DNA from: Rheinheimera sp. MM224
Lineage (GTDB): Bacteria; Pseudomonadota; Gammaproteobacteria; Enterobacterales; Alteromonadaceae
Length of the DNA stretch: 64,000 nt
Reading direction: 5' to 3'
NCBI RefSeq assembly: GCF_947090785.1
Contig: NZ_OX352320.1
Coordinates: 3,895,001 to 3,959,000 of the forward strand
Shown here: positions 50,645 through 56,315 of the stretch, piece by piece
How positions within the stretch are numbered: position 1 is the stretch's first letter
How the letters are laid out: each line of letters opens with the position of its first letter
Made by a program: the position numbers and the translations under genes
Notes under the pieces: model-generated
Seen by the model: the letters and a program-made list of their open reading frames with translations, nothing else
What the model was told of the DNA's origin: nothing
Databases searched by the model: none

Positions 50645-51271
50645 TCAGCGACGCACTGCAGAAGCAGGTCGGGCTAACTGAAATATATCAGCAGCAACCC
50701 TGCTGTAACCTGAACCACCAATACGACTGATTAAATCCATTTTGTATGGATCAGGCATGCCATTGGCATCCAATAATGTGGGGTTGATATAAATCGCCAG
50801 CACTTCTGCAAAAATCACTTCACAGCTTGGGTTTTCCGGCGGATAAGGTTGTAACCTGGATAACCTGCATTCAAGAGCTACAGGAGCTAATGCCACACGA
50901 GGCACTTTGATTTGGCTGGACGCCGCCTGTTCCAAACGGGCTAAATCAAATTCACTTTCATCTGCAGGCACTGCGGCTGCGCTGATATTCATTTCATTAG
51001 CCAGCGCATGCGGCACCAGATTCACTACAAAATCCCGGGTCGCTTCAATATTTAGGCTGGTGTCTTTACGACTGCCATCGGCTTTATGCTGAGTGGAGAT
51101 CATCAGGGTCGGTGGCTGATCTGTGATCATTTGAAAAAAACTAAAAGGGGCTAAATTCAATACGCCATCTGAAGACAGACTCGATACCCAGGCGATAGGT
51201 CGAGGGGTGATAGTACTGGTTAATAGCTTATAAGCCGCTGAAGGGTCCAACTGCCGCAGATCAATCCACAT
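50645..51271 (-). CDS. Flavin reductase-like FMN-binding protein
   Basis: 208 residues of the flavin reductase-like / flavoredoxin split-barrel family. The diagnostic region is TSTITPRPIAWVSS, followed by NLAPFSFFQ and DFVVNLV. It probably binds FMN; the partner or substrate is unknown. The ATG at 51271 overlaps the chrA stop (TAATG) and has GGAG nine bases before it. The frame is open for 52 more codons inside chrA, but that part is not family-like. Coupling to chrA hints at a shared redox or metal-stress role, which is inference. Confidence 0.85.
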   Translation of the reverse strand: MWIDLRQLDPSAAYKLLTSTITPRPIAWVSSLSSDGVLNLAPFSFFQMITDQPPTLMISTQHKADGSRKDTSLNIEATRDFVVNLVPHALANEMNISAAAVPADESEFDLARLEQAASSQIKVPRVALAPVALECRLSRLQPYPPENPSCEVIFAEVLAIYINPTLLDANGMPDPYKMDLISRIGGSGYSRVAADIFQLARPASAVRR

Positions 51272-52614
51272 TAATAAAAACTCCAAAAAGATAAAACTAA
51301 ACCCAACATAGCGGCTCCTGCTATCACCCGCATTAAGCTCTGCTTCGCCACAAACAAAGCCAGCGCTGCAAGTATAGTAATAAGAACAGCTTGCCAGTCG
51401 ATAGCACCGGTAAAGCCTGTTGGCCATACAACATGGTATGCAAAAAACAGCGCTAAATTAACAATAACCCCCACCACCGCAGCACTTATTGCCGTTAATG
51501 GTGCAGTGAGCTGTAACTTGCCTTGAGTGGATTCCACCAGAGGACCTCCTGCAAGAATAAAAATAAAAGAAGGTAAAAAGGTAAACCAGCTCACCAGAAG
51601 CGCGGCTGTAATTCCGGCCAGCAACATCAAATCAGGGCCAAAGCTGGCATGCACATAAGCGCCAACAAAAGCGACAAAAACCACCACCATAATCAGCGGG
51701 CCTGGTGTGGTTTCCCCTAAAGCCAAGCCATCCATCATCTGCCCAGGCGTTAACCAACCAAACTTATCTACAGCGCCCTGATAGACATAAGGCAGCACAG
51801 CATAAGCACCACCAAAAGTTAATAATGCAGCCTTGGTAAAAAACCAGCTCATTTGGGTCAGTTGATGTTGCCAGCCCAAACTGAAGGTAAGTAGCAACAT
51901 AGGTAAAGCCCACAGTACTAAACCACAAGCTACTACCACGACAAAACGGCTCCAGCGAAATAACGCATGTGAAGGAGTTGGGGTTGTATCGTCAATCAAA
52001 GCCGGACCATAACTTTTTTGGGAAGCCGCATGACCGCCAGATGAAAACACTGCAGGTGTCACTTTACTGCCGATAAAACCAATCAAGGCGGCAGACAAAA
52101 CAATAAGCGGGAATGGCAGTTGAAAGGCAAAAATAGCGACAAAAGCAGCAACAGCTATAGCCCATAATAACGGGTGTTTCATCACCCGCCCGCCTATACG
52201 CCAGGCGGCATGTAGCACTATGGCGGCTATCGCAGGTTTAATCCCATAAAACAATGCAGCTACCCAAGGGTGCTCGCCATACACCAGATAACCCCAGGAC
52301 AGCAGCACCAAAAGCAGTAATGACGGCAGAATAAACAACAAACCTGCCACCACGCCACCCAAAGTGCGGTGCATCAGCCAGCCTAAATAGGTCGCCAGCT
52401 GTTGTGCTTCAGGCCCGGGCAGCAGCATGCAATAATTCAGCGCGTGCAAAAACCGGCCTTCGCTGATCCAACGGCGTTTTTCCACCAGCTCAGTATGCAT
52501 CAGAGCAATCTGTCCGGCAGGCCCACCAAAGCTGATACAACCCAACTTCAGCCAAAACCAGAAAGCTTGCCAAAATGGGATGGAAGGAGGAGAAGATAAG
52601 GCTACGTTTTGCAT
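51271..52614 (-). CDS. chrA: Chromate efflux transporter ChrA
   Basis: CHR-family inner-membrane antiporter, 447 residues, of the long bidomain type. The first CHR domain has ISFGGPAGQIALMH and LLPGPEAQQLATYLGW, and the second has LTFGGAYAVLPYV and GETTPGPLIMV. About ten to twelve spans. Family members export chromate and give chromate resistance, although many chromosomal copies are uncharacterised. It is translationally coupled to the flavin reductase gene downstream. Confidence 0.93.
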   Translation of the reverse strand: MQNVALSSPPSIPFWQAFWFWLKLGCISFGGPAGQIALMHTELVEKRRWISEGRFLHALNYCMLLPGPEAQQLATYLGWLMHRTLGGVVAGLLFILPSLLLLVLLSWGYLVYGEHPWVAALFYGIKPAIAAIVLHAAWRIGGRVMKHPLLWAIAVAAFVAIFAFQLPFPLIVLSAALIGFIGSKVTPAVFSSGGHAASQKSYGPALIDDTTPTPSHALFRWSRFVVVVACGLVLWALPMLLLTFSLGWQHQLTQMSWFFTKAALLTFGGAYAVLPYVYQGAVDKFGWLTPGQMMDGLALGETTPGPLIMVVVFVAFVGAYVHASFGPDLMLLAGITAALLVSWFTFLPSFIFILAGGPLVESTQGKLQLTAPLTAISAAVVGVIVNLALFFAYHVVWPTGFTGAIDWQAVLITILAALALFVAKQSLMRVIAGAAMLGLVLSFWSFY

Positions 52615-52923
52615 TGGAATATCAGCAAGTTATTAAGGGGTTCAGACTACCAAACTTATAAGGTGCATCGCCACTTGATAGTGATTCAGTCACCGTGGAA
52701 TTATTTGATAGCATCTTAAATCCCGAAAACAACTACTGGACAAATAGATGAAAATAACTAACTCTACATGACGATTAAAAAAATGACATGCCGCTATTAG
52801 AAGCAATAAATACATGCTGTGCATACAAAAAAATAGCAGGAAATTAACACGCCAAGCACAAGTATCAATTTTGCCGAGCTTTGGTGTGCGCTCAGAGAAA
52901 CAGGATTAAGCAAGGAGCACGGA
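52615..52923. other. AT-rich gap between divergent chrA and the NACHT gene
   Basis: 309 bp with no credible gene. It must carry the promoters for chrA (minus) and the NACHT gene (plus). A small GTGA-N5-TCAC palindrome is at about 52680-52692. I see no tRNA, direct repeat or attachment-site duplication. The last bases give a strong ribosome site, AAGGAG, six bases before the ATG at 52924. Confidence 0.5.
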
Positions 52924-55716
52924 ATGGAAAATCAGAATACGAAAGTAACTTTGACGAAGCCAAAATCTATATGGAATCGTAAAGTGACTCTAGATTTAAA
53001 GCCGCTATTTAAAGCACTTGGAAAGATGGCTACCCATGCTACCACTCTCAAGTTCGAAGAGTTAGGCAACGATACCGTCGAAGCTGCGGTGAGTCTTGGG
53101 TTAGAGACTCCAATTGAGGAGTTAGGATATGCATTAGTTTCAAATGCGCTCTTAGACGCCCTAAAGTCATTATCACGAGAAAGTACCTCGCACTTCGACG
53201 CAAGCTCTTCTCAAGATTGCTCAATTAGCGAACAACTTGAGAAACAGTTAATTGGAACAGCCATTTCTTTCAATGATAAATTCTTTGACGCTCCAGCCGA
53301 TCAACCTTTTCTCAAAGATGTAATTGAAGCCTATTCTAACTGGCTCTGTGATAATGGTGTTTCACCTTGGAACTCACAGTCTATAGCGGCTCGACTTCCT
53401 GCATACTTCGTTAATTCGCTATCGTCTGAATGGCGAAAAAATTCTTCTATTTATAAACGGTTATTAGACCTACAAGATACTCCTTTCAAAAAGGCTGAAT
53501 ACGCTCTACAAGGCTGGAATGCTTATTTTTCATACCTACAAAAGCGGATATCGGAAAATATATTCGACGAGCCATTTAGCCTCGCTCAGCTTTATATCCC
53601 GCTCAATGCTTACTACGTAGAACGTGTTGAAAAATCCGAGCAAAGTGCCTCTGAGTTCCGAACAAAAGACAGAAGGGTCTGTGTTTGCCTTGAAGATGAG
53701 CTTGTACATTGGCTCGGGTCTCAAGATAAATCAGATGCTTTGCGAGTAATCAGTGGTGGTCCAGGAAGTGGGAAGTCTTCTTTTACACGAGTTTTTTGCG
53801 CTGAAATAGCAAAACGCGGCATCGCAAAACCCATTTATATCCCGCTGCATCTTATAGATCCTACACGTGACGTTTCAAGCGAAGTTGAAAAGTTTATTCG
53901 AGATGAAGCACTACTTGGATTCAATCCGTTAGATCCTGATAGGAAGGAGATAGGTGTACTTCTGGTCTTCGATGGCCTAGACGAACTCGCTAGTATGGGT
54001 AAAGCTGCTGCACAAGTTGCTCGTGATTTTATACAAGCTGTCGAAAAGATGATTGAACGAAGAAATCTTGGCCCGAATCCTATTAACGTAATAATAAGTG
54101 GCCGTGAGTTAATCGTCCAAGAGAACGAAACTGAGTTTCGACGCCCACGACAAGTGCTTAACATACTTCCCTACTTTGTTACGGAAGACAAATCGACATA
54201 TGCAGACCGTAAAAAAATACTTGAAGTAGACCTGCGACAACTTTGGTGGCAAAAGTACGGTACGCTGGTTGGGCAACAGTTCACAGGAGTTCCCAAACAA
54301 CTGCAATTGCCGGAAATTGATGAAATCACGGCTCAACCTTTGTTGAATTATCTAGTCGCCCTAAGCTACCGACGTGGGAAAATCGACTTCAATCGAAAAA
54401 TAAACTTGAATACAGTTTACGCAGACCTCGTGGTTGCGGTGCATGAACGGGGTTATGAGAAAACAAGAACTTATCGACCAATTAGCCATATTATTCTCCG
54501 AGACTTTGTGCGAGTTTTAGAAGAGATTGGTTTAGCTGCTTGGCACGGAAGCGACGGCCGTTCAACCTCTGTCAGGGATATACTTTTTCACTGTAAACAG
54601 AGTGGGCTCACCGCATTATTGGACTCTTTTACTGAGGGAGCTCAAGCAGGAACAACCAAATTGTTAGCTGCATTTTTCTTCAGGCGAGGAAGCGAGGCCG
54701 CTGGTGACGATTCGACATTTGTATTCACACATAAAAGTTTTGGTGAGTATCTCACAGCGATGCGCATCGTAAGGGGTCTTGATCGCATAATAACTGAGAG
54801 AAATCGGAGAATAGCAAACACCGACGACGGTTTCGATACAACTGATGCTTTGATTCATTGGGCGAAACTTACTGGGCCTGCAGCAATGACTGAGTATGTT
54901 CAGAGATTTCTTCGTCGTGAAATCGCTAAGCGGCAGATTGAAGAATTAGAAGTTTGGCAACCTGTTCTCACTGAACTAACTACACATGTCATTGAACACT
55001 TAATTCCCATGGAGAAAATTGGTAACCTCAGCCATTCATCTGCGTGTCGCCAAGAAATTAACTCGTCGACATCACTTTTAATAGCTTTAAACGCTGTGTC
55101 CGTAGCTCTACAAAAAGTTGCCAAACTAAATTTTAGTACCGAAGTGAGTTTTGGTTCCTTTTTACGTCGAATGTGTCCTCAACGCTCAGGGGCTAAGTCG
55201 CCACTGCTATTTTCGTGTCTATCATTTTTGGATCTCTCAGAGCAATGTCTGGATATGGTAGATCTATTTGGTGCAAACCTACAATCGACTATCTGGAGGG
55301 GAACGAGCGCGCACTTTGGGATCTTTGATAGCACCGATCTCAGTAATGCTGACTTTACAGGAGCAAAGTTAAGTTGGAGCCGATTTGGTCATGCAACACT
55401 CAATTCCGTAAGATTCGTTGACGCAAGACTTACAGGAGTAAAATTCGGGATTTCATCACAACTCCGAGGAATAGACTTTTCCAGAGCTCGGCTCCAGCGT
55501 GCAGATTTTGAACACGCAGAACTAGTGCAATGCACTTTCGATAGAGCGAATATTTCCGGTACTAATATTAATCTAGCTAGCGTAGTTGTCGACTGCACCA
55601 TACATGGAGCTAGAGCCGATAAACATGAGAAGCAGTTAATTCAATGGGTAGAGCGATTAAGGAAGGATGGAAGCCTAAAAGGAGAGTTAAACTTAACAGA
55701 AGCAAATGACTCTTAG
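52924..55716 (+). CDS. NACHT STAND ATPase with pentapeptide repeats (candidate defence protein)
   Basis: 930 residues. The N-terminal 270 residues are mostly helical and unrecognised, probably the effector or signalling part. A NACHT NTPase module follows: Walker A GGPGSGKSS (278-286) and Walker B VLLVFDGLDELA with Asp-350 and the DxxDE acid pair. Then come a helical arm region (about 390-760) and pentapeptide repeats (about 780-897, e.g. LSNADFTGAKLSWSRF). Bacterial NACHT proteins related to NLR immune receptors protect against phages; that role is inferred here. The gene is AT-richer than its neighbours, uses many ATA, AGA and CGA codons, and stands alone with its own ribosome site. No frameshift was seen. 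Confidence 0.85.
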   Translation: MENQNTKVTLTKPKSIWNRKVTLDLKPLFKALGKMATHATTLKFEELGNDTVEAAVSLGLETPIEELGYALVSNALLDALKSLSRESTSHFDASSSQDCSISEQLEKQLIGTAISFNDKFFDAPADQPFLKDVIEAYSNWLCDNGVSPWNSQSIAARLPAYFVNSLSSEWRKNSSIYKRLLDLQDTPFKKAEYALQGWNAYFSYLQKRISENIFDEPFSLAQLYIPLNAYYVERVEKSEQSASEFRTKDRRVCVCLEDELVHWLGSQDKSDALRVISGGPGSGKSSFTRVFCAEIAKRGIAKPIYIPLHLIDPTRDVSSEVEKFIRDEALLGFNPLDPDRKEIGVLLVFDGLDELASMGKAAAQVARDFIQAVEKMIERRNLGPNPINVIISGRELIVQENETEFRRPRQVLNILPYFVTEDKSTYADRKKILEVDLRQLWWQKYGTLVGQQFTGVPKQLQLPEIDEITAQPLLNYLVALSYRRGKIDFNRKINLNTVYADLVVAVHERGYEKTRTYRPISHIILRDFVRVLEEIGLAAWHGSDGRSTSVRDILFHCKQSGLTALLDSFTEGAQAGTTKLLAAFFFRRGSEAAGDDSTFVFTHKSFGEYLTAMRIVRGLDRIITERNRRIANTDDGFDTTDALIHWAKLTGPAAMTEYVQRFLRREIAKRQIEELEVWQPVLTELTTHVIEHLIPMEKIGNLSHSSACRQEINSSTSLLIALNAVSVALQKVAKLNFSTEVSFGSFLRRMCPQRSGAKSPLLFSCLSFLDLSEQCLDMVDLFGANLQSTIWRGTSAHFGIFDSTDLSNADFTGAKLSWSRFGHATLNSVRFVDARLTGVKFGISSQLRGIDFSRARLQRADFEHAELVQCTFDRANISGTNINLASVVVDCTIHGARADKHEKQLIQWVERLRKDGSLKGELNLTEANDS

Positions 55717-55799
55717 CCGTTAAAATAACACTGAATTATTCATAAGCAGAGGAAATTTGCCTCATTTGGCAAAACTGCAGTAGCAGACTAGCTAAAGCG

Positions 55800-55900
55800 A
55801 GGATGGCTATAGTTCTAAGAAGACCGTCTTTGGCAGGGATGCCAAAGACGAGCCTATAGGGACATATTCACGGCGTGTCTGCTTGGGCTATAGCCATACC
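55800..55900 (+). ncRNA. Nested hairpin element with GGA loops (unrecognised)
   Basis: An outer 9-bp stem (TGGCTATAG 55804-55812 with CTATAGCCA 55888-55896) encloses a perfect 11-bp hairpin CGTCTTTGGCA-GGGA-TGCCAAAGACG (55825-55850). The remaining part reads GGGACATATTCACGGCGTG. GGGA in a hairpin loop resembles a CsrA-binding site. I remember similar GGCGTGTC-containing intergenic elements as multicopy in marine gammaproteobacteria, but only this copy is in the window. Confidence 0.45.
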
Positions 55901-55912
55901 GCAGCTACCGAA

Positions 55913-55941
55913 CTTTGCTGAGTAATTAATTGTCAGCAAAG
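55913..55941 (-). other. Hairpin just past the rnpB 3' end
   Basis: CTTTGCTGA/TCAGCAAAG perfect 9-bp arms around an AT-rich loop, 10 bases beyond the predicted RNase P RNA end. Without a T-run it may be a processing or weak termination signal. Confidence 0.4.
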
Positions 55942-55950
55942 GAAATAAGA

Positions 55951-56315
<365 letters not shown>

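Follow-up and report, generated by a model that had tools for sequence, protein, structure and literature searches.

Bacterial NACHT (bNACHT) antiphage proteins related to NLRs were reportedly described by Kibby et al. in Cell in 2023. The protein considered here, encoded in a stretch of 64,000 nucleotides of Rheinheimera sp. MM224 (hereafter the window), can be likened to them by architecture and fold: it is likewise the product of a single gene with an N-terminal domain, a central NACHT and a C-terminal sensor, the roles of its two ends being presumed, and it likewise combines NACHT-type Walker motifs with an NLR-like module fold, as in NLRC4 and NLRP3. In the accessible part of PMC12169576, a follow-up on bNACHT25, the tested members carry a PD-(D/E)XK nuclease and NCH1 in clade 6 and a SNaCT domain, in which no effector is readily discerned, in clade 14, whereas the ends of the window protein are NNH3 and pentapeptide repeats. 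The CARD-NLR systems (LypABC and that of Lysobacter), as far as the available text of PMC13236601 describes them, similarly rely on a STAND ATPase whose N-terminal domain possibly signals by protein contact, but they are multi-gene systems with a CARD-trypsin partner, while the neighbours of the window gene are chrA and rnpB; no adjoining CARD or trypsin-peptidase partner was seen, with genes for ChrA and a flavin reductase on one side and rnpB on the other. The animal NLRs NLRP3, NLRC4 and NOD2 have leucine-rich repeats where this protein has a pentapeptide beta-helix, and a CARD or PYD at the N-terminus where it has NNH3. The closest proteins are those catalogued in Pfam with NNH3 (PF22735), NACHT and pentapeptide repeats, which share the same domains in the same order and align over the full length, differing in the number and surface of the repeats, with no essential difference seen. 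The family is large and already catalogued, so the gene is of interest as an example and does not represent a new type of system. STAND conflict systems are treated in PMC7159879 and PMC8195603, and PMC10907252 was also consulted; the accessible parts of PMC7159879, PMC8195603 and PMC10853773 do not describe the NNH3-NACHT-pentapeptide architecture, which is not to claim its absence from print, and no functional test of the family was found in the literature, within a partial coverage of it.

The gene is a single unbroken open frame of 930 codons (52924..55716, + strand), supported by Pfam domains and by the 1145 homologues returned by a protein search, and a putative Shine-Dalgarno-like AAGGAG (52912..52917, +) can be read in the sequence with the ATG 6 bases downstream. 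A preliminary description of this DNA had left the N-terminal region without a recognised domain and had proposed a profile check of it. Residues 21-220 (52984..53583, +), presumed to act in effector function or signalling, match the Pfam NNH3 domain with 104.1 bits against a cut-off of 27 (E 1.3e-29, profile positions 7-213 of 213); the N-terminus is thus a catalogued domain. The Pfam and structure searches turned up no housekeeping assignment for it, which would have told against a role in immunity. An NLR-like NACHT module follows at residues 196-672, as matched to NLRP3 (53509..54939, +). The Pfam NACHT model (PF05729) reaches 23.3 bits at residues 275-366 in a scan of the protein, under its cut-off of 26.7, and 26.9 bits, barely over it, in a six-frame search that included the neighbours. 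The Walker A motif GGPGSGKS (residues 278-285, with K284; 53755..53778, +) and the Walker B motif LLVFDGLDE (residues 346-354; 53959..53985, +) are intact and of NACHT type, as first proposed: G278, G279, P280, G281, G283 and K284 of the former and all of D350, G351, L352, D353 and E354 in the DGLDE core of the latter (350-354) are invariant among 115 aligned proteins. The same alignment shows F601, H603, K604, F606, G607 and E608 to be invariant in FTHKSFGEYL (residues 601-610; 54724..54753, +), which we take to be the winged helix of NACHT. The C-terminal pentapeptide repeats were also correctly recognised at the outset. They form a beta-helix, presumed to be the sensor, at residues 766-885 (55219..55578, +); the Pfam model PF00805 matches about residues 802-882 with 56 bits, its cut-off being 20.2, and this score together with the beta-helix fold places the protein in the pentapeptide repeat family. 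No model of PADLOC-DB, which presumably contains those for Avs, fits the 930-residue protein, which counts against a defence role; the best score in a check for Avs membership was only 15.9 bits, for mad8.

The structure predicted for the 930-residue protein has a pLDDT of 86.7. In fold searches its NACHT module resembles NLRP3, NLRC4 and NOD2, the TM-scores over the whole chain being only 0.23-0.27, and its C-terminus resembles pentapeptide proteins. The NNH3 domain is mostly helical in AF2 models and has no significant fold match in the PDB.

The architecture had been thought uncommon, a view that the size of the family does not bear out: NNH3 and pentapeptide repeats occur together in 116 of the 120 homologues listed among the 1145, with named sources that include bacteria and Methanothrix, and a scan of named genomes gave 164 relatives, with 48 of the 80 that were kept being cyanobacterial by title. 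Given these large counts, the architecture is common overall, and it is rare in the lineage of Rheinheimera sp. MM224: counting its own genome each time, NNH3 was found in two of 295 relatives and six of 398 genomes of the phylum, and none of 14 control genomes has it. The other NNH3-bearing relative of the two (G117) is a 9.2-Mb bin in 1390 contigs.

The window protein was aligned with 114 homologues, six of the 120 listed having been left out as fragments or over-long. Two of them stand closest to it, P0001 with 86% identity and P0002 with 71%, and the other 112 lie between 43 and 61%. Averaged over the 115 rows, the commonest residue has a frequency of 0.81 around the winged helix and 0.75 in the core of NACHT; for NNH3 the value is 0.59-0.63, for the repeats 0.51 and for the tail 0.35, and conservation peaks over residues 491-615. 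Identity to P0001 is 91-95% over residues 1-245, 74% over the repeats and 62% over the tail; over 19 repeats, four of 38 inward-facing positions differ and 22 of 57 outward-facing ones. For 19 divergent members the values are 0.50 in the repeats and 0.42 and 0.50 in NNH3, so that the repeats do not vary more than NNH3 there. The pattern in the close pair is what a diversifying sensor would look like, and equally what a beta-helix drifting on its surface would look like. The same outward face bears on the idea of a Qnr/MfpA-like protein that acts at DNA gyrase, with the NACHT part as its regulator. This function is very improbable here, considering that the exposed surface has changed so much from the nearest homologue, that the NCBIfam Qnr equivalog model gives 34.4 bits where 240 are required, and that the fold match is general to pentapeptide proteins, with 2j8k and the synthetic 4ycq ranking higher.

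The composition of the gene sets it apart from its surroundings. Among the 33 long ORFs of the window taken as genes, it has the lowest GC content (0.429, against a mean of 0.471 and a standard deviation of 0.017) and the most deviant codon use, with a divergence of 0.37 bits per codon where 0.03 is expected at its length and the next gene reaches 0.21; the AT-richness and odd codon use first remarked upon are thus confirmed. The 59 other genomes searched, of which 21 belong to the genus, gave no full-length match, and in the six with any match the aligned part stays inside residues 715-890, scoring 18-26 bits. The gene is present in one of the 22 genus genomes searched, its own and the other 21, and vertical inheritance across relatives is contradicted by the lack of the full-length gene in these 59. 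Since it combines the lowest GC content and the most deviant codons with the lack of any full-length match in the 59 relatives, it is a recent, horizontally acquired accessory gene. In a tree built quickly from 95 NACHT cores (of 96 rows, one was dropped because a motif could not be located), it groups with P0001-P0003, then with P0009 from Rubrivivax and a set holding P0004 from Paracidovorax. A member on a viral contig (L133), itself a long branch, is basal to this clade with an SH-aLRT of 98, and a Pseudoalteromonas member (L132) is distant from the window gene. Acquisition, presence in one of 22 genomes and the absence of an adjoining partner gene would also suit a selfish passenger, the cargo of a former mobile element, which brings this host little benefit and is being lost. 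This seems quite doubtful for an intact frame of 930 codons with a Shine-Dalgarno-like site, in which the residues invariant in the 115 proteins are all present, as they must be by the definition of the alignment; besides, the N-terminus is closer to P0001 than the repeats are, which suggests selection until recently.

The insertion site is itself variable. On the left lies a gene for a ChrA-family chromate transporter (51271..52614, - strand; PF02417, E 1e-76), with a flavin reductase gene (PF01613) on the same side, and on the right lies rnpB, encoding the RNase P RNA (55953..56312, -; RF00010, 318.4 bits). The gene had been described as sitting between core genes. This is true of rnpB, found in 21 of 21 congeners searched, and not of chrA, since among the 20 stretches beside rnpB that were fetched (G021 was left out) the chrA side is common to only 11; eight do not match it, and L027 does not extend far enough to tell. 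In the 11 syntenic loci, the slot between chrA and rnpB (52585..55943 in the window) is empty in five (L036, L037, L038, L042 and L043), where about 100 bp separate the two genes, and filled in six. Three of the latter (L034, L039 and L044) hold a gene pair with a lipoprotein-like start, as read by eye, without a Pfam match in the one tested; two (L040 and L041) hold a glycosyltransferase-like gene; and L035 holds a nucleoside-deoxyribosyltransferase-like gene (PF05014, 29.2 bits against a cut-off of 28.8) that scores 14.7 bits with a PADLOC TIR effector. In L034 the pair is followed by an AbiGi-family gene (PF10899, E 7.6e-22; PADLOC AbiGi, E 2.9e-12). At least five kinds of cargo, that of the window included, are thus held by the slot in the genus. 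Part of this variable cargo is of defence type, but the slot is not reserved for defence.

The flanks of the slot were compared as well. The right flank (55790..55944, +) recurs at the same site in G004 (L034) and G008 (L035), at 88-91% (88-89% over query residues 5-155), and among the 11 syntenic loci the sharing is limited to these two. Copies elsewhere are shorter or weaker, with matches in 19 of the 22 genus genomes, its own included. Window positions 55791-55909 belong to an intergenic repeat that is dispersed and has a TCTTTGGCAGGGATGCCAAAGA hairpin. A site-specific element at rnpB was considered and is not supported, the right flank being mostly this dispersed repeat of 19 out of 22 genomes; no integrase gene was seen among the window ORFs or in the six filled congener inserts, and no literature on rnpB as an integration hotspot was found. 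About 36 bases before the right flank resemble the G008-type gene (about 81%, by eye), and a remnant of such a gene is not relied on, as a shared hairpin fits equally. In G004 (L034), a copy of 51-54 bases of the chrA end lies between the two cargo modules, which hints at possible recombination at the flanks of the slot.

A check of the homologues for defence-island neighbours had been proposed, and a comparison around 80 relatives does not bring such neighbours out: 148 near neighbours (within 1.5 kb, after removal of four of 152 proteins that overlapped the matched gene) match 70 PADLOC models and 129 far ones (more than 4.5 kb away) match 69. This lack of enrichment is weak evidence either way, because far genes may share the same islands and the figures count models matched rather than members with a hit. 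Clustering of 1223 neighbouring ORFs from the 80 loci by blastp gave 949 clusters, the widest of which reaches 16 loci and resembles a generic ABC ATPase. Outside cyanobacteria, no cluster near the gene occurs in more than two of 32 loci, and one of those reaching up to two is itself a fragment of a split family gene. The absence of a recurring neighbour in these loci favours NNH3 acting by itself or through a host protein. Twelve of the 80 loci, all cyanobacterial (L080, L086, L094, L097, L099, L100, L101, L104, L107, L114, L117 and L121), have a small gene family, of which 11 members share the strand of the family gene at a distance of up to 1.5 kb, 10 of these 11 upstream; at nine of the 12 a second cluster lies directly upstream and encodes a peptide with PLSLEVEPLSL-like repeats. 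Both clusters may be partners special to cyanobacteria.

Close relatives of the gene were also found in three IMG/VR viral contigs (L133, L134 and L135), from which 10 ORFs were picked for a scan of the neighbours. In all three, a repressor-family gene lies at most two genes away: it is the adjoining ORF in L133 (phrog_4), the second ORF on one side in L134, where an endonuclease family adjoins the other side, and two ORFs upstream in L135, which has an integrase downstream. A position beside the repressor is usual for lysogen-expressed cargo of temperate phages. STAND proteins can serve purposes other than phage defence, MalT, which regulates maltose genes, being the model, and a STAND signalling protein that responds to a metabolite or a stress in the cell and controls some other process, the pentapeptide helix serving as a scaffold, has to be weighed. 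Such a role would agree with the 48 cyanobacterial loci among the 80 kept, with the small gene family recurring in 12 of these and with the lack of PADLOC enrichment. It is nevertheless unlikely, given that the Pfam scan of the protein found no DNA-binding or other regulator domain at a credible score, and that defence accounts better for the patchy presence, the slot shared with AbiGi and the three viral copies of three near a repressor.

The preferred reading, which we regard as likely, is that of a one-component immune receptor of STAND/NACHT type that probably works through abortive infection; an NLR-like single-gene system, proposed from the beginning, gains from the NLR-like fold, the patchy occurrence of the gene, the variable slot and the viral relatives near repressors. 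Most likely, then, the gene guards the cell against viruses. In the resting state the NACHT module would be monomeric and ADP-bound, held by the winged helix. The C-terminal pentapeptide beta-helix could then bind a phage-made or phage-altered molecule, the repeat surface being proposed as the sensor because of its position and its divergence from the nearest homologue. Binding would permit nucleotide exchange and an oligomerisation like that of NLRC4 or NLRP3, proposed on account of the fold and the invariant motifs, and this would bring together the helical NNH3 domains at the N-termini, which might be toxic effectors or recruit a host partner, so that the cell would stop before phage release. 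The phage as trigger, the oligomerisation and all action of NNH3 are what we infer. More tentatively, at somewhat short of an even chance, NNH3-NACHT-pentapeptide proteins at large would be widespread one-gene antiphage receptors, spread in part by temperate phages, which would sense phage by a beta-helical surface where others use leucine-rich or TPR repeats, and would stop the cell by a helical effector. The sensor is of moderate interest and the acquired gene probably has a role in defence. If so, the NLR-like repertoire of bacteria would gain a beta-helical type of sensor, more than a thousand family members could be tested by way of one gene, and NNH3 might be a helical effector or adaptor with a fold still to solve. 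P0001, 86% identical overall and 74% in the repeats, makes a natural pair with the window protein for probing recognition by the repeat surface.

Other records of related sequences are more distant or partial. The phage collection holds one, matching residues 775-897 only, and the plasmid collection eight, one of which covers at least 80% of the query, in two pieces and at 25% identity. Five further viral contigs (L136-L140) carry a distant NACHT relative, with 24% identity over residues 216-887 and without the matched NNH3 region. In the same genome as the window gene, another stretch (L001; G000:C1:1617237-1617653), in a frame of 469 residues, is over the Pfam NACHT cut-off with 31 bits.
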